64,000 bases of DNA from Agapetus fuscipes (taxonomy: Eukaryota > Arthropoda > Insecta > Trichoptera > Glossosomatidae): NCBI GenBank assembly GCA_951799405.1, contig CATOGX010000043.1:1-64000 (forward strand), written 5' to 3'. Both the position numbers and the translations under genes were made by a program. Numbering within the stretch: the stretch's first letter is position 1; the number at the start of each line of letters is the position of its first letter. The notes beneath the pieces were generated by a model. That model saw only the letters and a program-made list of their open reading frames with translations, had not been told where the DNA came from and searched no databases. Shown piece by piece: positions 8,187 to 61,138 of this stretch.

Positions 8187-8322
8187 AATTCCATACTGAC
8201 ACGTAAATTTAAAATGCATTTGTGTGCATGAAGAAATGTTAACTTGAATGATGGCTCCGCCGGCACTGCAGGGGTACCAACATGTAGTGTAGCAGCGGAG
8301 GGAGCTACTTCATGTTGAACAG

Positions 8323-8466
8323 CTAGCACCATGTGCTCGTGTAGATCACTTACAAGGAAATCTCCCAGCTGGTTAATGTGTCAACATAAGCTAGCTAGCA
8401 CCATGTGCTCGTGTAGATCACTTACAAGGAAATCTCCCAGCTGGTTAATGTGTCCACATAAGCTAG
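8323..8466 (+). repeat. 72-bp tandem duplication
   Basis: The segment beginning 'ctagcaccatgtgctcgtg' occurs at 8323 and again at 8395 with nearly identical sequence. An open frame crosses both copies but has no protein-like features. Next to it, 8515-8598 is a diverged piece of repeat family A (core 'cacagcatgtgcaagtgtaa'). Confidence 0.85.
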
Positions 8467-8699
8467 CTTGTGTTCAGGGTGAGACGACAAGAGCTGCAGA
8501 GCAAGAGTCATGTTCATTTGGGGTTCAGGTTTTTATGCAAGCGCCTACACAGCATGTGCAAGTGTAAACTTGAACATGCCTGCTTGTGTGTGTGCATGAA
8601 GTTACTCTCCTCAGGAGGAGGGACTCCCTCATGTTCATCAAGTAGACAGGATCTCTTCATGTCAACAGATCCTACAGACGTCACAAGGCTACCGGACAG

Positions 8700-44900: not shown

Positions 44901-47900
44901 TCAATATCTTTTTCCTTTGACTAAGTTACAAAGATAAATTAACATTTAAAATTCATATTAAATGCATACCCACAAACAGACTTGTGTAAATTCGCGCTTA
45001 TGAATATTACGTGTGTTCTTACAAATTAAAATCTAAAAATCAAATGAGCACACACCCTACGACTTTTGCCGAGACATGACGAACTTCTCCACCTTGTTGA
45101 GCTTAGTTGTATACTGTAGGACTCACCTCCGTAAGACATGACGAACTTCTCCACCTTGTTGAGCTTAGTTGTATACTGTAGGACTTACCTCCGTAAGACA
45201 TGACGAACTTCTCCACCTTGTTGAGCTTAGTTGTATACTGTAGGACTCACCTCCGTAAGACATGACGAACTTCTCCACCTTGTTGAGCTTAGTTGTATAC
45301 TGTAGGACTCACCTCCGTAAGACATGACGAACTTCTCCACCTTGTTCAGCTTAGTTGTATACTGTAGGACTCACCTCCGTAAGACATGAAGAACTTCTCC
45401 ACCTTGTTGAGCATAGTTGTATACTGTAGGACTCACCTCCGTAAGACATGACGAACTTCTCCACCTTGTTGAGCTTAGTTGTATACTGTAGGACTCACCT
45501 CCGTAAGACATGACGAACTTCTCCACCTTGTTGAGCTAAGTTGTATACTGTAGGACTCACCTCCGTAAGACATGACGAACTTCTCCACCTTGTTGAGCTT
45601 AGTTGTATACTGTAGGACTCACCTCCGTAAGACATGACGAACTTCTCCACCTTGTTCAGCTTAGTTGTATACTGTAGGACTCACCTCCGTAAGACATGAC
45701 GAACTTCTCCACCTTGTTCAGCTTAGTTGTATACTGTAGGACTCACCTCCGTAAGACATGACGAACTTCTCCACCTTGTTGAGCTTAGTTGTATACTGTA
45801 GGACTCACCTCCGTAAGACATGACGAACTTCTCCACCTTGTTGAGCTAAGTTGTATACTGTAGGACTCACCTCCGTAAGACATGACGAACTTCTCCACCT
45901 TGTTGAGCTTAGTTGTATACTGTAGGACTCACCTCCGTAAGACATGACGAACTTCTCCACCTTGTTGAGCTTAGTTGTATACTGTAGGACTCACCTCCGT
46001 AAGACATGACGAACTTCTCCACCTTGTTGAGCTTAGTTGTATACTGTAGGACTCACCTCCGTAAGACATGACGAACTTCTCCACCTTGTTCAGCTTAGTT
46101 GTATACTGTAGGACTCACCTCCGTAAGACATGAAGAACTTCTCCACCTTGTTGAGCATAGTTGTATACTGTAGGACTCACCTCCGTAAGACATGACGAAC
46201 TTCTCCACCTTGTTGAGCTAAGTTGTATACTGTAGGACTCACCTCCGTAAGACATGACGAACTTCTCCACCTTGTTGAGCTTAGTTGTATACTGTAGGAC
46301 TCACCTCCGTAAGACATGACGAACTTCTCCACCTTGTTGAGCTTAGTTGTATACTGTAGGACTCACCTCCGTAAGACATGACGAACTTCTCCACCTTGTT
46401 GAGCTAAGTTGTATACTGTAGGACTCACCTCCGTAAGACATGACGAACTTCTCCACCTTGTTGAGCTTAGTTGTATACTGTAGGACTCACCTCCGTAAGA
46501 CATGACGAACTTCTCCACCTTGTTGAGCTTAGTTGTATACTGTAGGACTCACCTCCGTAAGACATGACGAACTTCTCCACCTTGTTGAGCTTGTGCAGCC
46601 GGAACTTGTTAGCGAGGGCCGTAAGGATGATAACGCCTGTCAAAAATAAACCAACTCTAAAGTTACAAAGTCAAAATTATTAAAATATGAAAAGTATGGT
46701 CGAGCTGTATGGTTAGTGTGCAGCAGTCGCTGGTATGGTTAAGCGAACAAGGTGGCACTCGAATTAGCGTTATTGAAACTAGCGCAAGTTCGAGTCCCGT
46801 CGTGTCCTATCGACAATAGCTTTGACCCTGGTTCAGCAGATGGCATCGGGCAAATATCATTTAACAATTAATTAACATATAAAATAATGAATTATATATT
46901 GATGTGAAAACCTGCTAGATTGGCCAAAAACCGGTTGGTGAATTGCATCCCTTTTCACAATCATTCAAGACACAGTAATGAAGACAACGCTCACCGCATA
47001 TCCTGTAGACGGAGCAGAAGAGGATGGTCAGCACCACGAACCACGTGTTCCACACGTGGTCGTTCTGCACGGTGGCCACTCCCAGGAACATGAAGATGAT
47101 GGTCTCCGAGGAGCTGGACAGCATCTTCATGGCGTACTTTACGGTGGTGTGCGACTTGTGCGAGATGTTGGCCTCCACGTAGTTCTTCATGGTGATGCCG
47201 CAGAACGTGATCCTGCGGACAACACAACAACAACATTACTGGACAGCAACCAACACGTAGTTCTTCAAGGTGATCCTGGGGACAACATTACTGGACAGCA
47301 GCTAACACGTAGTTCTTCATGGTGATGCCGCAGAACGTCATCCTGGGGACAACACAACAACAACATTACTGGACAGCAACTAACACGTAGTTCTTCAAGG
47401 TGATCCTGGGGACAACATTACTGGACAGCAGCTAACACGTAGTTCTTCATGGTGATGCCGCAGAACGTGATTCTGGGGACAACACAACAACAACATTACT
47501 GGACAGCAACTAACACGTAGTTCTTCAAGGTGATCCTGGGGACAACATTACTGGACAGCAGCTAACACGTAGTTCTTCATGGTGATGCCGCAGAACGTCA
47601 TCCTGGGGACAACACAACAACAACATTACTGGACAGCAACTAACACGTAGTTCTTCAAGGTGATCCTGGGGACAACATTACTGGACAGCAGCTAACACGT
47701 AGTTCTTCATGGTGATGCCGCAGAACGTGATCCTGTGGACAACACAACAACAACATTACTGGACAGCAGCTAACACGTAGTTCTTCATGGTGATGCCGCA
47801 GAACGTGATTCTGGGGACAACACAACAACAACATTACTGGACAGCAACTAACACGTAGTTCTTCAAGGTGATCCTGGGGACAACATTACTGGACAGCAGC

Positions 47901-50900
47901 TAACACGTAGTTCTTCATGGTGATGCCGCAGAACGTCATCCTGGGGACAACACATCAACAACATTACTGGACAGCAACTAACACGTAGTTCTTCAAGGTG
48001 ATCCTGGGGACAACATTACTGGACAGCAGCTAACACGTAGTTCTTCATGGTGATGCCGCAGAACGTCATCCTGGGGACAACACATCAACAACATTACTGG
48101 ACAGCAACTAACACGTAGTTCTTCAAGGTGATCCTGGGGACAACATTACTGGACAGCAACTAACACGTAGTTCTTCATGGTGATGCCGCAGAACGTGATC
48201 CTGTGGACAACACAACAACAACATTACTGGACAGCAGCTAACACGTAGTTCTTCATGGTGATGCCGCAGAACGTGATTCTGGGGACAACACAACAACAAC
48301 ATTACTGGACAGCAACTAACACGTAGTTCTTCAAGGTGATCCTGGGGACAACATTACTGGACAGCAGCTAACACGTAGTTCTTCATGGTGATGCCGCAGA
48401 ACGTCATCCTGGGGACAACACAACAACAACATTACTGGACAGCAACTAACACGTAGTTCTTCAAGGTGATCCTGGGGACAACATTACTGGACAGCAGCTA
48501 ACACGTAGTTCTTCATGGTGATGCCGCAGAACGTCATCCTGGGGACAACACAACAACAACATTACTGGACAGCAAATAACACGTAGTTCTTCAAGGTGAT
48601 CCTGGGGACAACATTACTGGACAGCAGCTAACACGTAGTTCTTCATGGTGATGCCGCAGAACGTGATTCTGGGGACAACACAACAACAACATTACTGGAC
48701 AGCAACTAACACGTAGTTCTTCAAGGTGATCCTGGGGACAACATTACTGGACAGCAGCTAACACGTAGTTCTTCATGGTGATGCCGCAGAACGTCATCCT
48801 GGGGACAACACAACAACAACATTACTGGACAGCAACTAACACGTAGTTCTTCAAGGTGATCCTGGGGACAACATTACTGGACAGCAGCTAACACGTAGTT
48901 CTTCATGGTGATGCCGCAGAACGTCATCCTGGGGACAACACAACAACAACATTACTGGACAGCAACTAACACGTAGTTCTTCAAGGTGATCCTGGGGACA
49001 ACATTACTGGACAGCAGCTAACACGTAGTTCTTCATGGTGATGCCGCAGAACGTCATCCTGGGGACAACACATCAACAACATTACTGGACAGCAACTAAC
49101 ACGTAGTTCTTCAAGGTGATCCTGGGGACAACATTACTGGACAGCAGCTAACACGTAGTTCTTCATGGTGATGCCGCAGAACGTCATCCTGGGGACAACA
49201 CAACAACAACATTACTGGACAGCAACTAACACGTAGTTCTTCAAGGTGATCCTGGGGACAACATTACTGGACAGCAGCTAACACGTAGTTCTTCATGGTG
49301 ATGCCGCAGAACGTCATCCTGGGGACAACACAACAACAACATTACTGGACAGCAACTAACACGTAGTTCTTCAAGGTGATCCTGGGGACAACATTACTGG
49401 ACAGCAGCTAACACGTAGTTCTTCATGGTGATGCCGCAGAACGTCATCCTGGGGACAACACATCAACAACATTACTGGACAGCAACTAACACGTAACACG
49501 AACTTTATGAATGGGCAGCCACTTCAACGTAGTTCTTTATTGTGAAAGCACAGAGTGTGATGCTGAGGGAAACAGTAGACTATAGTGATTTCACAGAAAG
49601 TGATGTAACTATCAAATTATGGACCCCAATACTGGACCTTGTTTCTCTGCTGTGTTCAGCTTGTACCAGAAGTTGGCTTGTACGCAGATCATCATCCAGT
49701 TATTGGAGTTTCTCACATAAAAATAAAGTCATAACCAATCTAAGCTTACGTAAGATGACAATGTAAAGGTATTGTAACACGAGAGAAAAACGGAAAATAA
49801 GAATAAGAGTGTCTGCTGTTGACTCCGAAACCTCGCAAATTGTTTTTGCATAATATCAAAAGAAAAAAAGTCACAATGAAAAAACTAATTATGAGGCAGG
49901 ACACCAAGTATAAAACTGTGCGTAGAGCTTAAAATATTGTATTAAAACTAAAAAATAGCGCCTCCAGTGAGCGTTTAGCGCTCCCTATACATTTTTTTTG
50001 TAAAATATGATGCGATTGAGTACCAACGTTTAGTTTAAAACTTGCGGTCCACGCAGGGAACAAAGGATAAAGGAGAAAAAATCATTAGTATGCTACACAA
50101 AGACCTCGCTGATGGCAAAAAGTTTCTGCTTTATTTCAACTGATGTCAGTGTCTGCGTCAGAAAAAATAATCAACTTAACCTTAAAACAAAATATAATTT
50201 TATAAACAACACATTTACTTTGTCACCATTTTAATTTCATCATAGAGGGTTGGAACCTGTTCATTTTCATTAGATACCTTACCAAACCAAGCCAAACTAC
50301 ATTAATTACTCATTCAGGATCAGTGCAGTATTCGCGGCTGTTGGACGGATGAAACAGATTTATTTTGAAGGCTGAGTAAACCTAATCAGAACACACAATA
50401 GTCATTGATTAAGTTTTTGATTTTTCACTTATTGGGCCAAAAAAATGCCAGTGTACGCACAGCACGAGTAAGCGCGAACTTATAAGTATCTACTTGCGGG
50501 CGTACATTAAATATTAATCTTAATATGCAAATAATATTTTAGATAGCTCATGGCTATTTCACTACGTACGCTGCATCTAAATAGGGATTAGGTGCTTTTG
50601 AAAAACCATTGTCGCAGAACTACAATGTGACTGTTTTATAATACAGTCTCTCCTCTGCTCTCGCCACAAAAGTCACTCACAAAAGAAACAAGGTCAACTC
50701 AGCCTTCACAATTCCTCGCAGCGCCTCTTTGTGCGCAGATCTTTGTGTTGTGATCTATTTGCAGGTGATGGCTTAAGGCTTGACTCTTAATAAGGTGGAA
50801 GAAATGTAAAGAAGAGGAGATAGACCATGCAAAGACATCTCGTGTAGACTGTCGAGAATATTGCAGAGATAAGGACAACTCTAAAGTGAAAAACTGATCT

Positions 50901-53900
50901 AAAAAGCATGAAATAAGAAAGGGTTGATTGAATTACATCTTTAATCTGAGTTGCAAATATATGTATTATTACAATTAGGACTAGGGGCGTTGCCCCTGGC
51001 TGCTACGCAGCCCAACCCCTTAACATTTGGTGAATGTGTATATTGCGCATAGTTTCCTCGCGTTAAAATTCAGAAAACATGTAGAATAAAAACATGCCGC
51101 CTTTGAAAAAGAAAATCGACCACCCATACTTTAAAAAATGTTTCACTTTGCAGATTTCAGCTGTGTTTCAGGGGAGGTTGGCAAGAGTTGCAGGGCTTAT
51201 ATTCATTAGAGAATGGGTTTTTATGTTGTAAGTCCACATGGGCCATTTGTAAGCGCGAATTTTTACCTGTCTGCTTGTGGGAATGCATTTAATATGAATC
51301 TCAAATGGTATGTATCTTTGCAACTTAGATTATAGAACTAAACAAAATAATTTCCTTGACTTATGGGTTAGTATGTGGCTGACCACCCATACTGTAAGTA
51401 ATGGTTCACCATGCAAATTTTATCTCTGTTTGAGGAAAAGTCGGCAAGAGTTGCAGGGCTTATGTTAATTTGAGATTAGATTTTTATGTTGTAAGTCCAC
51501 ATGGGGAAATTGTAAGCGCGAACTTGTACCTGTCTGCTTGTGGGAATGCATTTAATATGAATCTCAAATTGTATGTATCTTTGCAACTTAGATTATAGAA
51601 CTAAACAAAATAATTTCCTTGACTAAAAGGTTATTATGTGGCTGACCACCCATACTGTAAGCAATGGTTCACCATGCAAATTTTATCTCTGTTTGAGGAA
51701 AAGTCGGCAAGAGTTGCAGGGCTTATGTTAATTTGAGATTAATTTTTTATGTTGTAAGTCCACATGGGGCATTTGTAAGCGCGAACTTTTACCTGTCTGC
51801 GTGTGGGAATGCATTTAATATGAATCTCAAATGGGATGTATCTTTGCAACTTAGATTATGTAAAGAAATACACAAAATAATTTCGTTGACTTATAGGTTG
51901 GTATGAGGCTGACCACCATACTTAAAAAAATGGTTTACTTTGCAAATTTCACCTTTGTTTCAGGGAAGGTTGGCAAGAGTTGCAGGGCTTTTGTTCATTT
52001 GGAATGGGTTGTTATGTTGTAAGTACACATGCAGCATATGTAAGCGTGAACTTATACATGTCTGCTTGTAAGAATGCATGTAATATGAATCTCAAATGTT
52101 TTATATCTTTGCAACTTAGATTACAGATTTAAATCCATTTTTATTTTGTGTATTTTTTTTTAATTTGCCTGAAATAAAAGAAAATATAAAAAAAAAATTC
52201 ACGTTTTGCCGCTAGATGTCAATTTATTTCCATACATTTTCAGTATGAACAAACAGGTTTATTGAAAGAAGTTTTCAGTGGATTTTAAACACATACGCAA
52301 AAGCTCGCAGCATTGCAGCATATATACAAAAATTAATTTGCCATAGATCAGGAATGTGTTTCCTCTGCTGTGATGGCATTAATTTTGAAAATCGAAAATG
52401 TAAGCGAATGACGACGGTCTGGAGTAATATAATAAAGGATACACATTAAATACATTTTTCCAAGCAGACACGTATAAGTTTGCGCTCACACATGCCGCAT
52501 GTGACCTAACAATATAAAAACCCAAATCGCAAATGAACCCAAGCTCTGCTACTCTTGCCGACCCTCCCTGAAGCAGGAGTGACATTGGAAAAATGAACCT
52601 TTTTTTGGTTAGCCACGTACCTACCAACCTATAATTTAAGAAACTAGTAAAAAAATGGGTGTAAAATTCCTATGTACCATTAAGTGAACTCGGCAGATAT
52701 CTGCCGAGTATATCGATACCCTAAAAATTACTGAATACGTAACATATTAAGTTAACATGGGTTTCTCAGATAAATGTAAAAAAAATCCTATATTTTATGA
52801 GAGAAAACATTACAATGTGTGAAAAGGCTGTAGTTAATAAGTTTGTCATGAGCACTTTCTTATAATTAGTTCACTTACTATGAGAAGTTACTCACTATAA
52901 AATATTGGATCCACGATTTCTCAAATCGTTTTACCTTTAAGGTGGCGATATGCACATCGATAAGTCAGGCTTTAAGCTATGTAAGACGTGTGTTTGCGTG
53001 AGATATGAATATGCAAGTTGTTGATTAGTTCCAGCTTTGTTAGGCAGGAGGTCTAGTAGACATATGCGGTCTGTTCAAAGCGGTCCATGACAAAGGCACC
53101 AGCAGGCACCGCGGCATTACAGTCAATGGGAGGATTATGTAGATCACTCTAACCGATACATCACTGTACTGGAAATAAATCTCTAACGTCTTCTGTGATT
53201 GAAATGTTTCTATTCATCAACAGTGCCATTACTTAATCGCGCTATTTGTTATTTTATCAATAACTGTATGTAAAGCGCCCTTGAGGTGATCTAAATCTAA
53301 ATGTAAACTGCAAAGATATATATCATTTAAGATTCATATTAAACGCATTCCCACAAGCAGACATGTAGAAGTTTGCGTTAACACATGTCGCATGTGGAAC
53401 TTCAATATAAAAACCCAATCTCAAATGAACATAAGCCCTGCAACTCTTGCCGACCTTTCGTGAAACAGGGATTCAACAAACAGATGCTTCACTATATCGT
53501 CCCCTTAGTGCTTGTTTGCGAAAGAATGCGCACTACAAAGGAGCTCTTGCAACCATTAAGCAGAGAAAGCTTATGTGCTTCGGTCACATTTTGTTAAATG
53601 AGAAGTACCGTCTCCTTCATCTTATCATTCAGGGTAAGATTAAGGGGAGAATATCTCAGGGACGCCGAAGGACATCGTGGCTGAGAAACCTGCGACAGCG
53701 GTTCGGCAAAAGCACCAAGTCCCTGTTTCGAGCCGCAGCATCACAAAATCAAAATGATAATATCGCCGATTTTCAATAGAAGTGGCACAAAAAGAAGAAG
53801 AAGTGTTTGTTTGTCTTATGTCTATCAGAGGCAATTTCACTTGAGCAATATTTGTATGAGTACCTGACCAATGTGTCTTACGAAAACTGGAATTTGATTA

Positions 53901-59900: not shown

Positions 59901-60817
59901 CCTAGAAACTGATTATAAAGAGGCATTGTATTTCATTTATGGTACACAAATTGGCTCAGGTATTTTTTATGCTGATCGATGTGTAAAACTGACCAATGAC
60001 TCTCTGGAAAAGAACACATGACATTAATAACTTACAAAGGAGATTACAGAATCGCTCATATTTTCAAAATAAGAGCTTCGTCCATCAATCACGAGCAATA
60101 ACATAATATTTAGTTGTCTATACTGTGTGACTTGCAGAACAGAGTCGAGGTACATGTTCTGTTCGGTCGACTGACTTTCTCCAAAACATACTCCGACAAA
60201 AGTCTCTCACAGACAATGACAAAATGTTAATCACTGAGATAAAAAATGAGAATCAAAACAATGGTAAGCAAGTCACTTAGAATGGACACTTCCTCCTTAT
60301 ACTCATGACCATCGATGAACATATTTCAAAAGGAAAAACGTAAAGGATTTCACTCACGCCAATATCCCGCTCATGTGAAAGATCTCAGCATTCAGGTAGG
60401 CCAGGTAGGCCATCACGAAAATGAAGATGGGCTCGATGACCCTCACTTGGTTGGTGAATCGCGTCACCAGGCCAGTGGCGAAGCCCCACAGGACGCCGAT
60501 GACAGTTCCGCCCACGGCCACCACGAAGAAGGAGGCCAGGCCGGCCAGCAGGTCCGTGTAGATGATGTTAGCCGGGCCCATCTCGGAGTAGGCCTCGAAC
60601 ATGTGGTACAGCACCACGGTGACGGCGTCGTTGAGCAGCGACTCCCCGAACACCACGATGTACAGGATCTCGTTCACGTGGATCTCCTCGAACACGGCCA
60701 GCACGGCCACGGGGTCCACGGCGGAGATGAGCGCGGCGAACAGGAACATGTCCAGGATGGGCATCTCCTCGGGCGGACCGAAGATGCCGGCCTGGGCGCA
60801 GGCCCACAGGGAGCCTC
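11797..60817 (-). CDS. Nhe2: Na+/H+ exchanger, plasma-membrane SLC9A/NHE family; 3' 14 exons, 5' end outside window
   Basis: Joined exons 60817-60358, 47212-46995, 46636-46553, 43452-43244, 39302-39022, 38762-38624, 30587-30447, 29334-29265, 24852-24748, 20445-20242, 16605-16549, 14593-14417, 12848-12524 and 11980-11797 give one open frame of 884 codons plus stop, with GT/AG introns and matching phases throughout. NHE hallmarks in order: AVDPVAV (residues 33-39 of the visible chain), GESLLND (58-64, the ion-binding Asn-Asp), GGLRGAV (254-260, with the conserved Arg), IQGITIKPL (293-301), then a basic amphipathic stretch near 343-363 where calcineurin-B-homologous protein binds in this family. 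The family exchanges extracellular Na+ for cytosolic H+ and controls pH and volume. The tail (about 325-884) becomes Ser/Pro/Gly-rich, suited to phosphorylation and scaffolding. The symbol follows Drosophila Nhe2; orthology to one paralogue is inference. Introns are dense with repeats, and three carry minisatellites built from exon edges. Confidence 0.93.
12150..12312 (+). repeat. PLE-related palindromic relic (family I), copy 1
   Basis: Contains CTGAAGA (12213-12219) followed by 'agcccatcgcagacat' and 'gaacaaagcgtccgg', then 'aagctccagctccgga' and the end 'ggcaacagatcccag'. Matches 18240-18430 and shares its end with 27755-27843. In copy 2 the same place reads CTGAAGA...GAAACGT, a hammerhead-like layout; here the second box is degraded. 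Confidence 0.55.
12524..12848 (-). CDS. Nhe2: NHE visible exon 13: Ser/Gly/Pro-rich distal tail
   Basis: 325 nt, residues 716-823. Begins [20 protein letters not shown], then a low-complexity Gly/Pro/Ser stretch ([17 protein letters not shown]) and [12 protein letters not shown] near the end. Probably disordered and phosphorylated (FRRESS and TRRGSM fit basophilic kinase sites; inference). Acceptor ACCAG at 12853-12849 after a pyrimidine-rich run, donor GTAACT at 12523-12518. High GC content marks the exon clearly. Confidence 0.88.
13143..13398. repeat. MITE family G, copy 1
   Basis: 256 bp with long inverted ends: 'cgcacgcttaatcataaag' then 'agcaataactc' at the left, 'gagttattgctc' then 'tttatgattaagtgtacg' at the right. 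A second copy lies at 33426-33682 with a nearly identical interior. The open frame at 13205-13519 is an accident of this element. Flanks (13080-13140 and 13400-13450) are also partly complementary, suggesting nesting in another fold-back repeat. Confidence 0.85.
13400..14416. other. Intron 12 remainder, nothing recognised
   Basis: AT-rich intronic DNA between MITE G and exon 12. I see no coding potential, array or named element. Confidence 0.4.
14417..14593 (-). CDS. Nhe2: NHE visible exon 12: tail exon
   Basis: 177 nt (59 codons, cassette-compatible), residues 657-715. Includes [31 protein letters not shown] and [17 protein letters not shown]. Acceptor TTGCAG at 14599-14594, donor GTAGGC at 14416-14411. 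Codons are G/C-ending. No named domain, but the YNSPSNTF stretch and the proline-directed Ser/Thr sites resemble exchanger tails. Confidence 0.86.
14664..14730 (+). repeat. SINE family B, 3'-end fragment
   Basis: 'cccttgaggtgtgctatgc' and 'aacagcgcttttcaaaataa' match the family B 3' end (CTCTTGAGGTGTGATTC... then CACCAAATAAATCATCC). Confidence 0.65.
14800..15110 (+). mobile_element. Non-LTR retrotransposon reverse transcriptase, C-terminal fragment
   Basis: Plus-strand translation reads [20 protein letters not shown], then [17 protein letters not shown] and, after a stop near 14997, [18 protein letters not shown] and [16 protein letters not shown] and GRPRKVW are hallmarks of the C-terminal tail of arthropod non-LTR reverse transcriptases. 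The end 'ctctggccacccctagcgg' recurs near 54990 and 61350 (minus), so this element type is repeated. Internal stop shows decay. Confidence 0.8.
15120..15400 (-). repeat. SINE family B copy
   Basis: Starts at the left with 'gatgatttatttggtgagcg' and runs through the body to a degraded tRNA-like head near 15350-15400 (B box as 'atatcaaacccacg' in + orientation). It sits directly beside the reverse transcriptase fragment. Confidence 0.8.
15401..16548. other. Intron 11 remainder
   Basis: No gene. 15410-15470 contains 'cgaccacggcaacagattcc', an end of the palindromic family I. The rest is AT-rich with no recognised element. Confidence 0.4.
16549..16605 (-). CDS. Nhe2: NHE visible exon 11: micro-exon with acidic cluster
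   Basis: 57 nt, residues 638-656: [19 protein letters not shown]. Too short to find by length alone; supported by the acceptor TTTCAG just upstream, donor GTAAAC at 16548-16543, continuous phase with exons 10 and 12, and a good acidic tail sequence. Its length is a multiple of three and it starts and ends in the same phase, so skipping would not shift the frame. Confidence 0.82.
17279..17537 (-). repeat. Repeat family A, full copy with (ATCTA)n tail
   Basis: The minus-oriented copy ends at the left in a run of 'atcta' units (17279-17300), the tail of the family, followed by 'agttgcaagg' and all signature blocks up to 'tataagtcaaggaacac'. A clear example of the tail type. Confidence 0.85.
17590..17830 (+). 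mobile_element. Non-LTR reverse transcriptase C-terminal remnant
   Basis: Nucleotide similarity to 57392-57640: both share 'actccaggat', 'gtcttggatggt'-like, 'ggaggattat' and 'ggccctgag' in the same order. Here the frame is broken repeatedly, so identity rests on the better preserved copy. Confidence 0.6.
18240..18430 (+). repeat. PLE-related palindromic relic (family I), copy 2, with two hammerhead-like motifs
   Basis: Head-to-head arms 'tcgaagctggagcttacag' (18307-18325) and 'acagaagcctcagcttcga' (18397-18415). Plus strand: CTGAAGA (18363-18369), 'aggccattgtagatatagta', GAAACGTAC. Minus strand: GATGAGCATCATCATAGACA then TGAAACGTCTGT. Both read toward the outside. Ends with 'aacagatcccagg' shared with copy 1. 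Confidence 0.55.
18431..20241. other. Intron 10 (3' part), no recognised gene
   Basis: An 87-codon minus open frame at 18838-19101 ([20 protein letters not shown] inside) has protein-like composition, but no motif I know and no flanking support. 19785-19860 contains a degraded SINE family C piece ('acaggtaagaagtcggcgtt'). Otherwise AT-rich. Confidence 0.4.
20242..20445 (-). CDS. Nhe2: NHE visible exon 10: Ser/Arg-rich tail exon
   Basis: 204 nt, residues 570-637. Contains [40 protein letters not shown] and [15 protein letters not shown]. Several Ser-Pro and Arg-x-x-Ser contexts suggest phosphorylation, an inference. GC-rich codons stand out from the flanking AT-rich intron. Acceptor CCAG at 20449-20446, donor GTACTA at 20241-20236; the donor is non-consensus after GTA, so the exact 3' edge is slightly less certain, although the phase is correct. 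Confidence 0.85.
20536..20695 (+). repeat. Interspersed repeat family E copy
   Basis: 'gaatttagatggcagctaaa' followed by 'gcagggcgctattatg' and 'ttttagcaattcagataac'. The same order recurs at 23858-24040, with partial copies at 23027-23110 and 23530-23650. No coding capacity; class unknown. Confidence 0.7.
20696..22083. other. Intron 9 segment, nothing recognised
   Basis: AT-rich intronic DNA. No array, tRNA-like region or coding motif seen. Confidence 0.4.
22084..22187 (+). repeat. 20-bp minisatellite, about 5 copies
   Basis: Unit 'ttactgtgagctgcctgtct' repeated with essentially no variation, so the array is young or homogenised. Followed at 22325-22400 by a plus-oriented fragment of the SINE family C 3' domain ('acatgcgacctctgcaggga'). 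Confidence 0.95.
22440..22560 (-). repeat. tRNA-like SINE remnant (family B-like)
   Basis: 'ctgtaaggatggatggatct' and, further on, 'gaaccactagaccgcgacag' match the body and the A-box end of family B in minus orientation, strongly diverged. 22560-23026 holds nothing recognised. Confidence 0.45.
23145..23345 (+). repeat. SINE family F (tRNA-like) copy 1
   Basis: Contains GGTTCGAATCCCGCGACG (23220-23237), a perfect B-box core, with an A-box-like 'tggccgcggggatca' 45 bp before. The body 'gaccctggttcaacagatg' and the end 'ggttggtggattgcattcct' recur at 46700-46965. It is flanked by 'ctgaaacgtagtttt' (about 23135) and its inverse 'aactacgtttcag' (23378), so it may sit inside a small inverted-repeat element. 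Confidence 0.7.
23858..24040 (+). repeat. Repeat family E copy 2
   Basis: 'tgaatttagatgacagctaa' then 'agcaggacgctattgtg', 'ctcaacaaaaatacat' and 'ttttagcaattcagctaac', in the same order as 20536-20695. Partial members at 23027-23110 and 23530-23650 cluster in the same 1 kb. Confidence 0.7.
24056..24290 (+). repeat. 21-bp minisatellite, 11 copies
   Basis: Unit 'ttttcccccactctatagat' plus one base, perfectly repeated. Because 21 is a multiple of three, the array stays open on both strands (FPPLYRY repeats on plus, YRVGENI repeats on minus), so open frames of 99 and 81 codons arise by chance. Confidence 0.97.
24291..24747. other. Intron 9 remainder before exon 9 donor
   Basis: AT-rich with short 'cacaaacacaaac' simple repeats near 24575-24600. 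Nothing else seen. Confidence 0.4.
24748..24852 (-). CDS. Nhe2: NHE visible exon 9: acidic tail exon
   Basis: 105 nt, residues 535-569: [20 protein letters not shown] then [15 protein letters not shown]. Acidic and probably unstructured. Acceptor TTTTCAG before 24852, donor GTGAGT at 24747-24742. The donor base splits a Cys codon with the next exon; frame and phase both fit. Confidence 0.86.
25604..25758 (+). pseudogene. piggyBac transposase N-terminal remnant
   Basis: Starts [20 protein letters not shown] and continues with an Asp/Glu/Ser-rich run ([12 protein letters not shown]), the acidic N terminus typical of PGBD transposases. The frame runs into the family A repeat at about 25759 and stops at 25861. 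A 5' UTR intron is suggested by GTAAGT at 25511 and TCTCTCTAG ending at 25600, just before the start codon. DDE-type catalytic region absent. Confidence 0.65.
25759..25979 (+). repeat. Repeat family A copy inside the piggyBac frame
   Basis: Starts 'catactgtaaa', so 5'-truncated, and contains 'tgccacccctgcttcaagg' and ends with 'cttagatttagatttag'. It interrupts the transposase frame, dating family A activity after the piggyBac insertion. Confidence 0.8.
26212..26778. mobile_element. PLE-end palindrome with four hammerhead-like motifs
   Basis: Two nested palindromes: 26264-26352 and a large one centred near 26542 whose arms (26409-26541 and 26543-26675) are almost perfectly complementary, extended by outer arms 26214-26260 and 26680-26727. 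Candidate 9-bp target duplication 'tatagaaat' (26203-26211 and 26779-26787). The motifs CTGATGA-hairpin-GAAAACG occur at 26304-26264 (minus), 26314-26352 (plus, as CTGATTA), 26540-26505 (minus) and 26545-26579 (plus). No protein remains. Confidence 0.75.
26994..27754. other. Intron 8 segment, nothing recognised
   Basis: AT-rich, no gene or array. Open frames here lack motifs or splice support. Confidence 0.4.
27755..27843. repeat. Perfect 29-bp-arm palindrome, family I related
   Basis: Left arm 27755-27783 and right arm 27815-27843 are exact inverted complements, beginning 'ggagtgatgttttccggga' and ending with its inverse, around a 31-nt loop containing 'gaagctccaactccagctc'. The arm motif 'ggatctgttgccg' and the loop motif match the ends of the two family I copies. 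Confidence 0.9.
27844..28540. other. Intron 8 segment
   Basis: AT-rich. No gene or named repeat, apart from 'gcgtaagtccgggggtatta', a short echo of 'aatatcccgttttacgcaaa' at 27916, forming a loose inverted pair (27914-28132). Confidence 0.4.
28541..29147 (+). repeat. 29-bp minisatellite, about 21 copies
   Basis: Unit 'taggattattggggcgctac' followed by 'tgtactgat'. Variants at three positions (attatt/attagt/gttagt, tgtact/tatact/tgaact, gatt/aata) are shared by blocks of neighbouring copies, showing block-wise expansion. Lies 118 bp downstream of exon 8's donor; the unit does not resemble the exon. Confidence 0.97.
29265..29334 (-). CDS. Nhe2: NHE visible exon 8: small polar tail exon
   Basis: 70 nt, residues 512-534: [20 protein letters not shown] followed by FTH. 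Short, polar, no recognised domain. The acceptor has a good pyrimidine tract (TTTCAG at 29340-29335); donor GTAAAA at 29264-29259. Phase agrees with both neighbours (one-base G carried to the next exon). A 29-bp minisatellite begins about 120 bp downstream. Confidence 0.86.
29468..29600 (-). repeat. SINE family B fragment
   Basis: 'gctgcaaagctggatgaacc' and 'cggcgaaaagcatatttgg' match the family B body; the tRNA head and tail are missing or degraded. Confidence 0.6.
29877..30165 (-). repeat. SINE family B, near-complete
   Basis: Minus orientation: head with GGCCCGTAGTCTAATCG (A box) near 30163, B box 'gggttcaattcc' near 30105, body, then the end 'caccaaataaatcatctt' at 29880 followed by a TAA-rich tail ('ataataataac', 29862-29872). 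Confidence 0.85.
30447..30587 (-). CDS. Nhe2: NHE visible exon 7: basic His/Arg-rich tail segment
   Basis: 141 nt, exactly 47 codons (residues 465-511), phase 0 at both ends, so it could be skipped without a frameshift. Reads [20 protein letters not shown] and ends in a basic cluster, [12 protein letters not shown]. The RRLSYSRH sequence matches the Arg-Arg-x-Ser type of kinase site, which is inference. Acceptor ACAG at 30591-30588, donor GTAAGA at 30446-30441. Confidence 0.9.
30792..31111 (-). repeat. SINE family C (tRNA-derived), full copy
   Basis: The minus-strand head reads CGATAGCTCAGGTGGTAGAG (A box) and GGTTCGAATCCCACCGAGG (B box), a near-intact tRNA fold (about 31111-31037). The body includes AAGGTTTACTCAGCCTTCAC, and the 3' domain holds a CCCCTTCGGGG hairpin and ends TGTGTAGCTTAGTTGC. 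Copies: 58673-58981, 42851-43073, 33903-34172 and fragments. Confidence 0.9.
31822..31997. repeat. MITE family K, complete
   Basis: 176 bp with long inverted ends: left 'ccagggctggaagtctcat' then 'gaccacggtaattct'; right 'agaattaccgtggtgatgag' then 'acttccagccctgg'. Interior contains 'ttcacttgcggccatcttgg'. A partial copy lies at 43585-43706. Ends in CAGGG, compatible with a hAT origin, but I find no clean 8-bp duplication. Confidence 0.85.
32016..32185. repeat. Second fold-back element adjacent to MITE K
   Basis: 'aataaaacatggcggcacat' (about 32044) pairs with 'caccgccatgttttatt' (about 32133), and 'catatctatt' with 'aatagatatg' outside it; 'gctgatc/gatcagc' lies inside. About 170 bp, non-coding. 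Confidence 0.75.
32589..32661 (+). repeat. 24-bp tandem repeat, 3 copies
   Basis: Unit 'caattattattatctgcca' followed by 'ttga(a)', perfectly repeated. Confidence 0.9.
33050..33356 (-). repeat. SINE family B, full copy with (TAA)n tail
   Basis: Left end is the tail 'aataataataatattagg', then 'ttatttggtgagcgctg'; the right end is the tRNA head with B box (minus, 'ggttgtgagttcaaatc') and A box 'tagttcagtggttaacac'. One of the best copies. Confidence 0.87.
33426..33682. repeat. MITE family G, copy 2
   Basis: Same inverted ends as 13143-13398 ('cgcacgtttaataataaag' / 'ttattattaagcgtgcg') and the same interior ('cagacaaccagtacaacttg'). The two copies are about 90 percent alike by eye, suggesting fairly recent spread. 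Confidence 0.87.
33903..34172 (-). repeat. SINE family C, diverged copy
   Basis: Retains 'gtgcaacttcttgccgcatt', 'ggctgagtaaaccttgctgg' and 'caaatcatttccgacaccct', but the tRNA head is eroded ('atcaaccctag...'-like). Older than 30792-31111. Confidence 0.75.
34173..36464. other. Intron 6 segment, mostly featureless
   Basis: AT-rich. 34668-34805 is a fold-back repeat ('gagatgaatatatgaaaaca' with an inverted partner 'atacaagtatttatctcatc') related to 10690-10800. A 22-bp duplication 'aaaatacctagctcctgatg' occurs near 35026 and 35047. No gene seen. Confidence 0.45.
36465..36800 (-). mobile_element. Non-LTR reverse transcriptase C-terminal fragment
   Basis: The minus strand encodes [15 protein letters not shown], then [20 protein letters not shown] and [16 protein letters not shown]. 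KLxYFGxxMRNEKFxLL followed by a basic Arg-rich run is the well-known tail of insect non-LTR reverse transcriptases. Same family as 53473-53780. Truncated upstream; no conserved YADD segment present. Confidence 0.75.
37337..37488. mobile_element. PLE-end palindrome with hammerhead-like pair
   Basis: Outer arms 'ttacggcgattatattatta' (37337) and 'cttaatatactcgccgtaa' (about 37466-37484). Plus motif: CTGAGGA (37435-37441), hairpin GCAAAC/GTTTGC, GAAACTGGTCGAGG. Minus motif: CTGAGGA (37399-37393), TTCAAAGG..TTTGC, degraded second box. Layout matches the other PLE loci; no protein. Confidence 0.6.
37489..38623. other. Intron 6 remainder
   Basis: AT-rich. Nothing recognised before the exon 6 donor. 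Confidence 0.4.
38624..38762 (-). CDS. Nhe2: NHE visible exon 6: tail segment
   Basis: 139 nt, residues 418-464: [20 protein letters not shown], then [20 protein letters not shown] and CKPYRR. This acidic and helical stretch occurs in the regulatory tail of NHE2/3/5-like proteins. Acceptor GCAG at 38766-38763, donor GTGAGC at 38623-38618. Ends in phase 0. Confidence 0.9.
38889..39003 (+). repeat. Repeat family A, 3' half, next to exon 5
   Basis: 'catttgtaagcgcgaactta' and 'cttgcaacttagattatag' plus 'atagatag' tail. Its end lies only about 18 bp from the donor of exon 5, so it forms the start of the intron. Confidence 0.8.
39022..39302 (-). CDS. Nhe2: NHE visible exon 5: membrane-proximal tail, CHP-binding region
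   Basis: 281 nt, residues 325-417. Contains [19 protein letters not shown] (about 344-362), an amphipathic basic stretch that in characterised NHE proteins binds calcineurin-B-homologous proteins needed for stability and activity. It is followed by an acidic/helical section and Asn/Thr-rich sequence ending in NFNG. Acceptor CTAG at 39306-39303 after a pyrimidine-rich run; donor GTATTC at 39021-39016. The last two bases split a Ser codon with the next exon. Confidence 0.92.
39449..39642 (+). repeat. 12-bp minisatellite, about 16 copies
   Basis: Unit 'agacctgtgact' with a few 'gag'/'atct' variants. Twelve is a multiple of three, so it stays open in both directions. Joins directly to the pyrimidine-rich satellite that follows. 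Confidence 0.95.
39643..41100 (+). repeat. Pyrimidine-rich 19-bp satellite with 263-bp higher-order repeat
   Basis: About 1.46 kb of degenerate units like 'ctacgctccctatcttcct'. A longer block beginning 'tattttcctctatgctccct' occurs at 39781 and again at 40044, giving a 263-bp higher-order period. The plus strand is strongly C/T biased. A 437-codon open frame over this and the preceding array has only the repeated [13 protein letters not shown] peptides and no gene support. Confidence 0.93.
41101..41896. other. Intron 4 segment
   Basis: AT-rich. Contains a G-rich 'ggggaggtggagggggaggg' tract at 41207-41226. No gene recognised. Confidence 0.4.
41897..42215 (+). repeat. 41-bp minisatellite, about 8 copies
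   Basis: Unit 'acacgggcagtcaaagagtg' followed by 'aagttagaacagtcagtgaaa'. Copies differ at single bases (gggg/gggc, aaa/gaa); last copy truncated. No similarity to any exon seen. Confidence 0.97.
42216..42850. other. Intron 4 segment with PLE-tail-like trace
   Basis: 'aacgaattttcactgtatta' at about 42278 resembles the motif 'atgaattttcacagtgttaa' next to the PLE palindrome at 26734 and again 23411, probably a PLE 3' tail remnant. Nothing else recognised. Confidence 0.4.
42851..43073 (-). repeat. SINE family C, 3'-truncated copy
   Basis: tRNA head intact on the minus strand (TCAATAGCTCAGTTGGTACA; GGTTCGAATCCCACCGAGG), body present, but the 3' domain after 'ccacttcagttgaagtg' is missing. Ends about 70 bp from the 3' edge of the exon 4 region. 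Confidence 0.85.
43244..43452 (-). CDS. Nhe2: NHE visible exon 4: GGLRGAV helix to start of cytoplasmic tail
   Basis: 209 nt, residues 255-324. Begins with the [12 protein letters not shown] helix whose Arg257 is invariant in NHE exchangers, then [23 protein letters not shown], the last membrane span, and then basic sequence opening the tail ([13 protein letters not shown]). Acceptor CAG at 43455-43453; donor GTAACG at 43243-43238, a weaker but acceptable 5' site. Ends in phase 0 at an Arg codon. Confidence 0.94.
43475..43706 (+). repeat. Family A 3' half followed by partial MITE K
   Basis: 43475-43592 is family A ('cacatgcggcatgtacaagc' to 'gattagattagattt'). 43593-43706 is the right two-thirds of MITE K ('gctgttcacttgcggccatc' to 'gacttccagccctgg'). 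The family A copy starts 20-25 bp from the acceptor of exon 4, within the intron. Confidence 0.8.
43755..43855 (+). repeat. SINE family B, 3' part
   Basis: 'gcgacgaccaagctcgcaga' to 'aataaatcatcctaatatta' with a TTA tail. 43856-44100 contains a GC-rich block with an Arg-rich open frame ([18 protein letters not shown]) of unknown origin. Confidence 0.75.
44180..44262 (-). repeat. SINE family B, tRNA-head fragment
   Basis: Minus B box 'agtgggtttgattccttgc' and A box 'taaagtctagtagttacag'. Ends where MITE D begins. Confidence 0.65.
44266..44516. repeat. MITE family D, copy 1
   Basis: About 250 bp; inverted ends 'tatcgctaccttaaaggtaa' / 'ttacccttaaggtggcgata', then 'aactgaataagtg' / 'cacttattcagtt'. 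Flanked by TA on both sides, compatible with a Tc1/mariner-type target. Copies: 52709-52952, 55150-55409, 62004-62241, and an end fragment at 57206-57230. Confidence 0.87.
44517..44919. other. Intron 3 segment, nothing recognised
   Basis: AT-rich intronic DNA without array or coding motif. Confidence 0.4.
44920..45072 (-). repeat. Repeat family A, cut off by the 62-bp array
   Basis: Starts 'ctaagttacaaagataaatt' and proceeds to 'ctacgacttttgccga', where it stops exactly at the first minisatellite unit. The family A piece normally continues 'ccttccctgaagcagg', so array growth or deletion removed the rest. Confidence 0.75.
45066..46552 (-). repeat. 62-bp minisatellite made of exon 3 end plus 5' splice site, about 24 copies
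   Basis: Each unit on the minus strand holds 37 nt of exon 3 coding sequence ([13 protein letters not shown]), the donor GGAG|GTGAGT, and 25 nt of intron ending 'caactaag'. Units are nearly identical; all show the GT donor (one has GTAAGT). Variants CTC/CTG in the Leu codon and a V-to-F change (GTC to TTC) mark subtypes; two linked variants recur about 744 bp apart (near 45347-45407 and 46088-46152), so 12-unit blocks were duplicated. The array is adjacent to the true exon. Confidence 0.97.
46553..46636 (-). CDS. Nhe2: NHE visible exon 3: short linker exon ending in SYGG
   Basis: 84 nt, residues 227-254: [27 protein letters not shown]. Corresponds to the cytoplasmic loop before the GGLRG helix in NHE proteins. 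Acceptor is a good pyrimidine tract ending CAG at 46639-46637; donor GTGAGT at 46552-46547. The last 37 nt and the donor are the repeated unit of the 62-bp array that follows downstream. Phase joins G|GT Gly to the next exon. Confidence 0.93.
46700..46965 (+). repeat. SINE family F copy 2
   Basis: 'gcaagttcgagtcccgtcg' is the B-box region, followed by 'tttgaccctggttcagcaga' and an end 'ggttggtgaattgcatccct', as in 23145-23345. Located in intron 2 just before exon 2's donor. Confidence 0.7.
46995..47212 (-). CDS. Nhe2: NHE visible exon 2: central membrane segments
   Basis: 218 nt, residues 154-226. Reads [20 protein letters not shown], then the family-typical [22 protein letters not shown] and a hydrophobic [17 protein letters not shown] helix. 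Splits Ala with the preceding exon and Gly with the next. Acceptor AG at 47214-47213, donor GTGAGC at 46994-46989. The 5' end of this exon and its acceptor form the core of the minisatellite that begins immediately upstream, and a diverged second copy of its start lies at 49505-49562. Confidence 0.94.
47180..49495 (-). repeat. 130-bp composite minisatellite made of 3' splice site plus exon 2 start, about 17 copies
   Basis: The unit has two related parts on the minus strand. Part A (78 bp) holds 'gttgtccccag' acceptor followed by about 36 nt of exon 2 (GATGACGTTCTGCGGC to AACTACGTG) and 'ttagttgctgtccagtaatg'. Part B (52 bp) is the same with a deletion inside the exon part. A-B pairs alternate; in two places A follows A (near 47760 and 48240). 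All A copies keep the acceptor AG. The first copy is the true exon start at 47212. Confidence 0.97.
49505..49562 (-). pseudogene. Diverged, truncated duplicate of exon 2
   Basis: Minus strand: acceptor 'ctactgtttccctcag' (to 49563) followed by CATCACACTCTGTGCTTTCA and AAGAACTACGTTGAAG. In the exchanger frame it reads [18 protein letters not shown] then stop, against [18 protein letters not shown] in exon 2. Similarity is at amino-acid level, with silent and replacement changes, so it is an old exon duplication, not an array unit. It stops after 18 residues where the minisatellite begins. Confidence 0.7.
49563..51108. other. Intron 1 segment, mostly featureless
   Basis: AT-rich. 50448-50546 is a partial family A copy ('gagtaagcgcgaacttataa'). 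'gaaggctgagtaaacctaat' at 50369 is a SINE C trace. No coding region seen. Confidence 0.45.
51110..52135 (+). repeat. Four tandem copies of repeat family A, 263-bp period
   Basis: The 'caacttagatt' end recurs at 51321, 51584, 51847 and 52112, spaced 263, 263 and 265 bp. Copies 2-4 also share the non-A linker 'aacaaaataatttccttgac', so three arose by unequal duplication of repeat plus linker, not by independent insertion. Confidence 0.9.
52425..52645 (-). repeat. Repeat family A, inverted copy
   Basis: Minus orientation: 'gcagacacgtataagtttgc', 'aaacccaaatcgcaaatgaa', 'gaccctccctgaagcaggag', 'ccaacctataatttaag'. Opposite orientation to the four tandem copies 300 bp away, forming a potential large hairpin. 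Confidence 0.8.
52709..52952. repeat. MITE family D, copy 2
   Basis: Left end 'tatcgataccctaaaaatta' (degraded), right end 'ttacctttaaggtggcgata'. Interior 'ttaagttaacatgggtttct' matches the other copies. Confidence 0.83.
53291..53472 (-). repeat. Repeat family A copy abutting a reverse transcriptase fragment
   Basis: 'acatgtcgcatgtggaactt' and 'ccctgcaactcttgccgacc' present; stops at 'gtgaaacagggattcaac', where the reverse transcriptase piece begins. 52953-53290 holds nothing recognised. Confidence 0.8.
53473..53780 (+). mobile_element. Non-LTR reverse transcriptase C-terminal fragment
   Basis: Plus strand: [67 protein letters not shown]. Matches the insect RT tail pattern RKLxxFGHxxxNEKYxLLxLIxQGKI followed by GRRRxSWLxNLR. 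Same lineage as 36465-36800; no YADD core; ends at a stop after DFQ. Confidence 0.85.
53781..54780. other. Intron 1 segment, nothing recognised
   Basis: AT-rich DNA with short unsupported open frames. Confidence 0.4.
54781..55148 (-). repeat. Repeat family A split by an insertion
   Basis: 54781-54906 is the 3' half and 55028-55148 the 5' half of one minus-oriented family A copy. The 121 bp between them contain 'gccattccgctaggggtggc', the same sequence that ends the reverse transcriptase fragment at 15080-15110, so a non-LTR 3' end probably landed inside. Confidence 0.7.
55150..55409. repeat. MITE family D, copy 3
   Basis: Ends 'atatcgacaccttaatggta' and 'ttacctttaaggtgacgata', interior 'ttgagaaatcgtggattaaa' and 'aaacccatgtcagtttaat'. 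The interior is inverted relative to copy 1. Confidence 0.87.
55410..56017. other. Intron 1 segment
   Basis: No gene. 'gatattgtgaagattcattt' (55991) resembles the PLE tail beside 9470, leading into the palindrome that follows. Confidence 0.4.
56018..56223. mobile_element. PLE-end palindrome, degraded hammerhead-like motif
   Basis: Left arm (56018-56082) runs 'aataatgtaaaaataaaaca' to 'cttcgagcgctttag'; right arm (56165-56223) 'aaagcgctcaaggaaataaa' to 'gtgtttttacattattaa'. Plus strand in the right half: TTGATTATGATGTGATAACA then TGAAAGCGCTC, a CTGATGA-hairpin-GAAA layout with changes. Same architecture as 26212-26778. Confidence 0.55.
56325..56525 (+). repeat. Repeat family A, strongly diverged copy
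   Basis: 'gtttcaaggaaaggcggcaa' and 'tctgcaacttaggttacag' keep the family order, with a mutated centre ('cacctgcagcatgtttaggt'). Confidence 0.6.
56526..57391. other. Intron 1 segment
   Basis: No gene recognised. 'cgtcaccttaaggtcataat' at 57206 is an isolated MITE D end. Confidence 0.4.
57392..57640 (+). mobile_element. Non-LTR reverse transcriptase C-terminal fragment
   Basis: Plus strand: [51 protein letters not shown], later [11 protein letters not shown]. RLxWAGHxxR and GRPRxRWxDN are diagnostic of RT tails of Jockey/RTE-like elements. The frame runs to 57766 but loses similarity after about 57640. Related, more decayed copy at 17590-17830. Confidence 0.85.
58063..58305 (+). repeat. SINE family B, plus-oriented copy with intact tRNA boxes
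   Basis: GGTCCGTAGTCCAGTGGCAA (A box) and GGGTTCGAATCCCGGCG (B box) 45 bp apart, then 'cgctaggttgaaaaattcat', 'gaccggtcactgaaggtcc' and 'cagcaactgggtcttgcttg'. The clearest tRNA-like head of the family. Confidence 0.88.
58306..58672. other. Moderately GC-rich intron segment
   Basis: 58590-58660 contains 'cctcgccccgcccaag' and similar. No gene or named element. Confidence 0.35.
58673..58981 (-). repeat. SINE family C, second full copy
   Basis: Begins at the left with 'gcaactgagctacacatata' and contains 'ttatccccgaaggggtcgca'. The tRNA head has a damaged B box ('gggcttgagttctgccg'). Small deletion after 'tcaagtgggggtctgg'. Confidence 0.88.
58982..60357. other. Intron 1 segment before the exon 1 donor
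   Basis: AT-rich; no gene, array or recognised element. Open frames lack splice support and known motifs. Confidence 0.4.
60358..60817 (-). CDS. Nhe2: NHE visible exon 1: membrane core with ion-binding motif
   Basis: 460 nt, visible residues 1-153, entered after a one-base split Gly codon. Starts [11 protein letters not shown], continues with [13 protein letters not shown] and [15 protein letters not shown], then two further hydrophobic spans, and ends at HMSGILA. Glu59, Asn63 and Asp64 correspond to the carboxylates and Asn needed for cation translocation in NHE proteins. The acceptor is AG at 60819-60818 with a short pyrimidine run; the donor is GTGAGT at 60357-60352. Directly upstream the exon's first 37-40 nt and the acceptor are repeated four more times (60818-61100), so the true acceptor is chosen by exon length and homology. 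Third codon positions are rich in G/C, unlike the flanking DNA. Confidence 0.94.
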
Positions 60818-61100
60818 CTGGGGACAACACAGAGACAACATGAGAAGATGCCGGCCTGGGCGCAGGCCCACAGGGAGCCTCCTGAGGGTAACACAGAGAC
60901 AACATCAGAAGATGCCGGCCTGGGCGCAGGCCCACGGGGAGCCTCCTGGGGACAACACAGAGACAACATGAGAAGATGCCGGCCTGGGCGCAGGCCCACA
61001 GGGAGCCTCCTGATGGTAACACAGAGACAACATCAGAAGGTGCCGGCCTGGGCGCAGGCCCACAGGGAGCCTCCTGAGGATAACACAGAGACAACGTGAG
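60783..61100 (-). repeat. 64-bp minisatellite made of 3' splice site plus exon 1 start, 5 copies including the exon
   Basis: Starts of 'gatgccggcctgggcgcagg' (or 'ggtg...') at 60783, 60847, 60911, 60975 and 61039, exactly 64 bp apart. Each unit on the minus strand has an acceptor (CCCCAG, CCTCAG or CATCAG), then 38 nt of exon 1 ([13 protein letters not shown]). The minus strand has no stop through all copies, giving one open frame from 61109 into exon 1. AG is kept in every copy. Confidence 0.97.
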
Positions 61101-61138
61101 ATAATGCACATGCAGAACTGTAGGAGATCCTATTGTTA

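Follow-up and report, generated by a model that had tools for sequence, protein, structure and literature searches.

Three probable mirage-type minisatellites at splice junctions of a single Na+/H+ exchanger gene in Agapetus fuscipes

How a single gene comes to carry, in three separate introns, minisatellites whose repeat unit crosses an exon-intron junction, and how such copies could be tolerated, is the question raised by a locus of the trichopteran Agapetus fuscipes. The stretch analyzed, called the window throughout, comprises positions 1 to 64,000 of contig CATOGX010000043.1 (assembly GCA_951799405.1), has a GC content of 39% and contains no Ns. The gene is encoded on the minus strand at about 11.8-60.8 kb and specifies an animal Na+/H+ exchanger that belongs with NHE3 and nhx-9. 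The original prediction made from this DNA proposed three arrays with units of 62, 130 and 64 bp, each repeating 36-38 nt of coding sequence together with the adjoining splice site, and the presence of three junction-spanning arrays in one gene is confirmed by Tandem Repeats Finder (TRF), by the placement of the exons and by dissection of the units. The three arrays, A1 to A3, are probably mirage-type minisatellites, which would have started as microhomology duplications over exon edges, grown in the manner of minisatellites, and been tolerated through the choice of the splice site on the exon side. The arrays, the exons that they adjoin and the related features are the following:

45072..46592, minus strand: array A1, at the donor of exon E3, with 23 extra donors (TRF and unit dissection)
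47176..49495, minus strand: array A2, at the acceptor of exon E2 (TRF, whose periods include 130, 260 and 390 bp, and dissection)
60780..61101, minus strand: array A3, at the acceptor of exon E1, with 4 extra acceptors (TRF and dissection)
49524..49574, minus strand: E2 junction relic, a diverged copy of the intron-exon junction just outside A2
60358..60817, minus strand: exon E1, ending HMSGIL, acceptor 60817/60818 (AG/GT ends, open frame when joined)
46995..47212, minus strand: exon E2, ending YRIC, true acceptor 47212/47213 (homologs, splice ends and frame)
46553..46636, minus strand: exon E3, true donor 46552/46553 (homologs, splice ends and frame)
43244..43452, minus strand: exon E4, the next downstream of A1 (homologs, splice ends and frame)

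Array A1 consists of 24 full units of 62 bp and a partial 25th that stops short of the donor. Each unit joins the last 37 nt of E3 to 25 nt of intron (GTGAGT and 19 nt more), with the donor changed to GTAAGT in one of the 24 units, and the mean identity between units is 0.984. The intron that holds it measures 3,100 bp, or about 1.6 kb without the array. Array A2 lies upstream of E2, in an intron of 13,145 bp, and contributes 34 extra units, each with its acceptor, of which 18 are 78 bp and 16 are 52 bp long. The 78-bp unit is made of 41 nt of intron end and 37 nt of exon start, and the 52-bp unit is a shortened form of it that retains 22 nt of exon, having lost 15 nt on the exon side and 11 nt on the intron side. 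The two forms, with mean unit identities of 0.980 and 0.995, mostly alternate as 78+52 pairs, giving a 130-bp higher-order repeat with two 78/78 irregularities; the predicted 130-bp unit is thus a genuine period for TRF that in fact represents a pair of units. Array A3 has five units of 64 bp, the true junction included, arranged in an alternating two-unit pattern and composed of 26 nt of intron end (with its AG) and 38 nt of E1 start; its mean unit identity is 0.938, and its intron, which runs off the window, is at least 3,183 bp long. One donor and two acceptors are therefore repeated, as predicted, and the coding share of 37, 37 and 38 nt (A1, A2 and A3; up to 40 in A1 through a shared AAG) falls within the range expected from the original prediction. 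Altogether, the junctions present 24 near-identical competing donors (A1), 35 acceptors (A2) and 5 acceptors (A3).

Thirteen exons, numbered E1-E13 in gene order, were placed within the window using 14 homologous proteins (tblastn) and the splice dinucleotides; the gene's earliest exons presumably fall outside it. Homologs match 11 of the 13 at E<=0.001, while E9 (near 24.8 kb) and E13 (near 12.0 kb) are weakly matched, with best E values of 0.003 and 0.97. E1 has 74-82% identity to homologs that span the whole exon, and the true exons E1-E5 are intact, with an open reading frame when joined. The joined protein of 503 aa, an approximate query given that the first 11 residues of E6 are absent and three intron codons are appended after E7, aligns over 99% of its length with Periplaneta americana nhx-9 isoform X5, at 84% identity, and resembles proteins of termites, ants and beetles as well. 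Pfam PF00999 is present among its database matches and its closest PDB matches are NHE1 and NHE3, so that homology extends across the exchanger domain and places the protein in SLC9 as an NHE3-like Na+/H+ exchanger. In a tree of 25 of the 120 listed relatives, the window sequence falls in a fork with 17 rows, 16 of which are winged insects (support 95/87). Its placement is no finer than that fork, and the tree is unreliable in detail because mosquito and mayfly rows sit outside it.

Repeats of this type are known from amphioxus under the name of mirages, whose defining description is reportedly the Adh paper (Nucleic Acids Research, 2002). According to PMC3087553 and PMC3902484, mirages are minisatellite-like repeats with a unit lying across an exon-intron boundary; they are known at Adh3, the globins BflGb6 and BflGb9, PGBD5 and TnC, and occur at donors as well as acceptors. 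In the same papers, Adh3 data and reverse transcription PCR of the globins are said to give no sign that regular splicing is disturbed, and the authors of the globin study put forward mirages as a possible origin of new introns. The units of A1, A2 and A3 all cross an exon-intron boundary, are similar to one another and of minisatellite size (52, 62, 64 and 78 bp; mean identity 0.938-0.995), and between them involve both 5' and 3' boundaries. The 52-78 bp found here compare with 10-160 bp in amphioxus and, as described there, many copies retain AG or GT and several exons are hit per genome. Unlike the mirages described there, the present ones belong to an insect and not to a cephalochordate, three of them occur within one gene, and they are known from DNA alone. 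The copy numbers also differ, with 24 and 35 junction copies at A1 and A2 versus 3 and 6 units in the two BflGb6 haplotypes. Among the matches listed in the open-licence literature, no case of a mirage in an insect was recognized. A1-A3 are therefore classed as mirages, the phylum being a new one for them; a single gene holds all three, and their copies outnumber those of the globin case.

Other systems share part of these properties. In human duplicated genes, internal tandem repeats at exon-intron boundaries are described in PMC2812944, and they resemble the present arrays in being minisatellites that multiply splice signals; unlike those repeats, which can create introns and alternative transcripts, the copies here are intronic and sit beside an intact exon. 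Intron gain through tandem duplication of proto-splice sites, proposed by Rogers in 1989 and by followers (as cited in PMC3087553), likewise copies splice signals in tandem. It differs in that a new intron is not evident here, the intron positions having been considered for this gene alone. The variable number tandem repeat in TERT intron 6, with 38-bp repeats, is, according to PMC3948165, also an intronic minisatellite with a bearing on splicing.

The window is rich in minisatellites, given that it holds 22 separate TRF loci totaling 9,447 bp. When founder units were placed randomly in 200,000 trials against 26 exon edges, counting overlaps of at least 10 nt on each side, there were on average 0.19 edge overlaps per trial and at least three in 0.06% of trials; with GC-matched placement the mean was 0.24 and at least three overlaps again occurred in 0.06%. 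One of these edges is off by one base and those of E9-E13 were taken from BLAST ends or nearby, from which no material change is expected. Exclusion of a 263-bp array lowered the frequency of at least three overlaps to 0.01% (random placement), and restriction to the 13 loci with at least three copies, again without that array, to 0.005% (random) and 0.02% (GC-matched). The claim that three such arrays are hard to explain by chance thus holds within the window, with figures that are post hoc and not genome-wide, because the window was picked for this feature. The other arrays had been said to carry no exon content, and indeed no clear exon copy was found in them by blastn with the 13 exons and 60-bp flanks. 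This statement carries one reservation: a dispersed repeat adjoining the E5 donor matches the 263-bp array (51836-51904) at 69% overall, the alignment entering E5 by about 25 nt. Its exonic portion, scored separately, reaches 10, where the random mean is 6.7, and for this reason the likeness is read as an alignment overrun.

The start of each array would have been a short tandem duplication of a segment crossing the exon edge, between a few bases that exon and intron have in common. Such a microhomology-mediated start fits the array junctions, most clearly that of A2, where the breakpoints on the exon and intron sides have TACGTG (6 nt) in common; in A1, AAG (3 nt) is common to the exon and the end of the unit, and in A3 the breakpoints have TC (2 nt). 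At equal base frequencies, a shared run of at least 6, 3 or 2 nt has a chance of 0.0013, 0.05 or 0.16, respectively. The extra copies, which in all three arrays are found on the intron side of an intact, in-frame true exon, would have been intronic from the outset and would have multiplied by unequal exchange and slippage. The arrays do show block patterns, of which these processes would be the cause: a three-unit variant block of A1 reappears 12 units (744 bp) apart, with 6 of 12 unit pairs identical at that offset. Together with the pattern of A2, these blocks, from one haplotype, may be taken as indirect signs of length instability.

Duplication at the E2 junction also appears to have an older history. 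The relic beside A2 is 74.5% identical to the E2 junction over 51 bp (blastn E=5.8e-5, with lax scoring), and its local score of 25 compares with a maximum of 17 among 1,827 random chunks. Because so diverged a relic adjoins A2, at least two duplications, widely separated in time, have probably occurred at the E2 junction. In the exon part of the relic, third codon positions hold 7 of the 10 differences, and 6 of those 7 are A/T in the relic and G/C in the exon; it looks as if either the relic or the exon copy was once under coding constraint, the number being small. The recurrent slippage-type duplication suggested in the original prediction is thus supported, both by the junction runs of 6, 2 and 3 nt and by this older event.

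For such copies to persist, splicing has to find the right site among them. The frame is kept by none of the 23 extra donors of A1, none of the 34 extra acceptors of A2 and one of the 4 extra acceptors of A3, such that 60 of the 61 extra sites are frame-breaking; apart from that one A3 acceptor, which lies at +192 nt and would add 64 residues, the normal frame is obtained only with the exon-side sites. The true E2 acceptor, GTCCGCAG, is not visibly stronger than the 78-bp copies, which read GTCCCCAG (16 of 18) or GTCCACAG (2 of 18), as judged by eye without a scoring program. What decides must consequently be position or the remainder of the exon, and we infer that the choice follows position rather than strength. 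The extra copies would be harmless as long as the spliceosome picks the site closest to the true exon body, and exon definition with long flanking introns would favor that site, given that a repeat copy holds one splice site and the true exon both. Since the choice of the exon-side site is what leaves the copies harmless, arrays could grow only on the intron side. This would be in line with the finding of Carranza et al. (2022; PMC9225289) that long introns favor the sites closest across the exon, a preference resting on database and minigene data. Two short introns of this gene (358 and 265 bp) were measured and no array was found in them, which are too few introns for a test.

Several points weigh against this reading. 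Normal splicing is an assumption, because its basis is the intact frame and not RNA. The exon-side preference is statistical, amounting to 60% in one equal-donor comparison in PMC9225289, whereas the choice here has to be all but exclusive. In the case of acceptors, according to the same source, the preference for the upstream site is no more than weakened by long introns, and this makes A2 and A3 harder cases than A1. The 2-nt microhomology of A3 is close to the chance level, and that of A1 is uncertain because the original intron flank was lost. Other offsets in A1 are nearly as good as 12 units, with 6 of 15 identical pairs at 9 units and 2 of 4 at 20. Finally, the near-constant exon share of the units is unexpected under plain random duplication: agreement to within 1 nt was reached by 0.26% of trials with three independent draws. 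The regularity was spotted post hoc and may be a coincidence.

The explanation that survives best beside mirage-type duplication is that slippage hotspots exist at exon edges that are GC-rich and prone to form hairpins within an AT-rich locus, with the splice sites as passengers. It is in line with the composition of the arrays, 10 of the 12 that reach at least 100 bp having 42-63% GC against the 39% of the window, and with the edges of E1 and E2. Among 20 edges of 10 exons (all but E9-E11), the E1 edge has the highest GC content (75%) and joint second-best folding (-10.5), and the E2 acceptor edge folds best (-11.1). However, the E3 donor edge, which carries 24 copies, has 47% GC, tied third lowest, and a folding energy of -4.5, 14th of 20, while the E4 acceptor (72% GC, -10.4) and the E13 donor edge (-10.5) have no array; TRF of the window found none at the edges of E4. 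GC-matched placement, as given above, did not make three overlaps any more frequent. The part of the original prediction that invoked GC-rich exon edges is therefore correct for E1 and fails for E3, and GC-rich hotspots, which are unlikely to be the general cause, account for at most part of the arrays.

The constant exon share gives rise to another alternative, which we regard as improbable: a process that acts on exon edges as such, for example repair coupled to splicing or transcription, repeatedly taking about 37 nt of exon at either of its ends. If this were true, gene expression and not random slippage would be what keeps producing mirages, and A2 and its relic would represent repeated rounds at one junction.

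It is even more doubtful that the repeated splice sites were selected, with several copies in use to regulate exchanger isoforms. GT or AG is kept in all 61 full extra copies, the in-frame A3 acceptor could yield a longer protein, and, with the 52-bp units excluded, 6 of 112 columns vary in exon parts versus 12 of 92 in intron parts (Fisher p = 0.08). This last difference is not significant, nearly all of the extra sites break the frame, and the youth of the arrays is by itself enough to predict conserved sites, because identity is high (94-99%) throughout the unit. The selection for multiple splice sites that had been suggested thus finds no clear support. Least credible is an assembler that inflated or misplaced the repeats: copy numbers do come from the assembled sequence alone, but the unit variants are patterned (the recurring three-unit block of A1, the two 78/78 irregularities of A2), the window has no Ns, an old diverged relic adjoins A2, and three distinct junction units would be hard to blame on an assembler.

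Further observations concern the same gene and its repeats. The acceptor tails at 60818 (E1), 47213 (E2) and 43453 (E4) end in TGTTGTCC[CGA]CAG, and 26 nt around the A2 and A3 acceptors are 88% identical (blastn). An exchange of sequence between A2 and A3 was considered and rejected: T/G-rich acceptor tails are found at E4 and E6 too, and composition is for that reason the simpler reading of the likeness. In a Blattella germanica hypothetical protein (P0054), the E2 exon is translated in an incorrect frame (DHVLRYNDEELRG...), which is apparently an error of the gene model at the same junction as A2. A two-copy 72-bp repeat at 8321-8468, with GTAAGT on the minus (gene) strand, was tried as a fourth case and discarded, as no exon was found there by tblastn with the C-terminal 330 residues of 9 homologs.

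The 263-bp tandem array, at 51118-52127, has sequence in common with repeats beside E4 and E5 and further matches near 17.3, 25.9, 38.9 and 54.8 kb, among others, and apparently belongs to a dispersed repeat family. A 29-bp array with about 21 copies occupies 28541-29147; it begins about 120 bp beyond the 3' end of E8 and is devoid of exon sequence. At 39447-41097, a 12-bp array runs straight into a long pyrimidine-rich 19-bp array, about 145 bp upstream of E5. Outside the gene, positions 3-578 hold a piece of a non-LTR (long terminal repeat) retrotransposon endonuclease, with two relatives at 49-51% identity that carry PF14529/PF03372.

Lancelets were the sole earlier source of mirages found, and three of them in one insect gene suggest that mirages originate in distant animals. 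They may go unnoticed where introns are assembled from short reads. Models of intron gain can draw on mirages, gene predictors may be misled by them, and arrays such as these are natural competition tests of splice choice, with up to 35 near-identical sites of which one is right.

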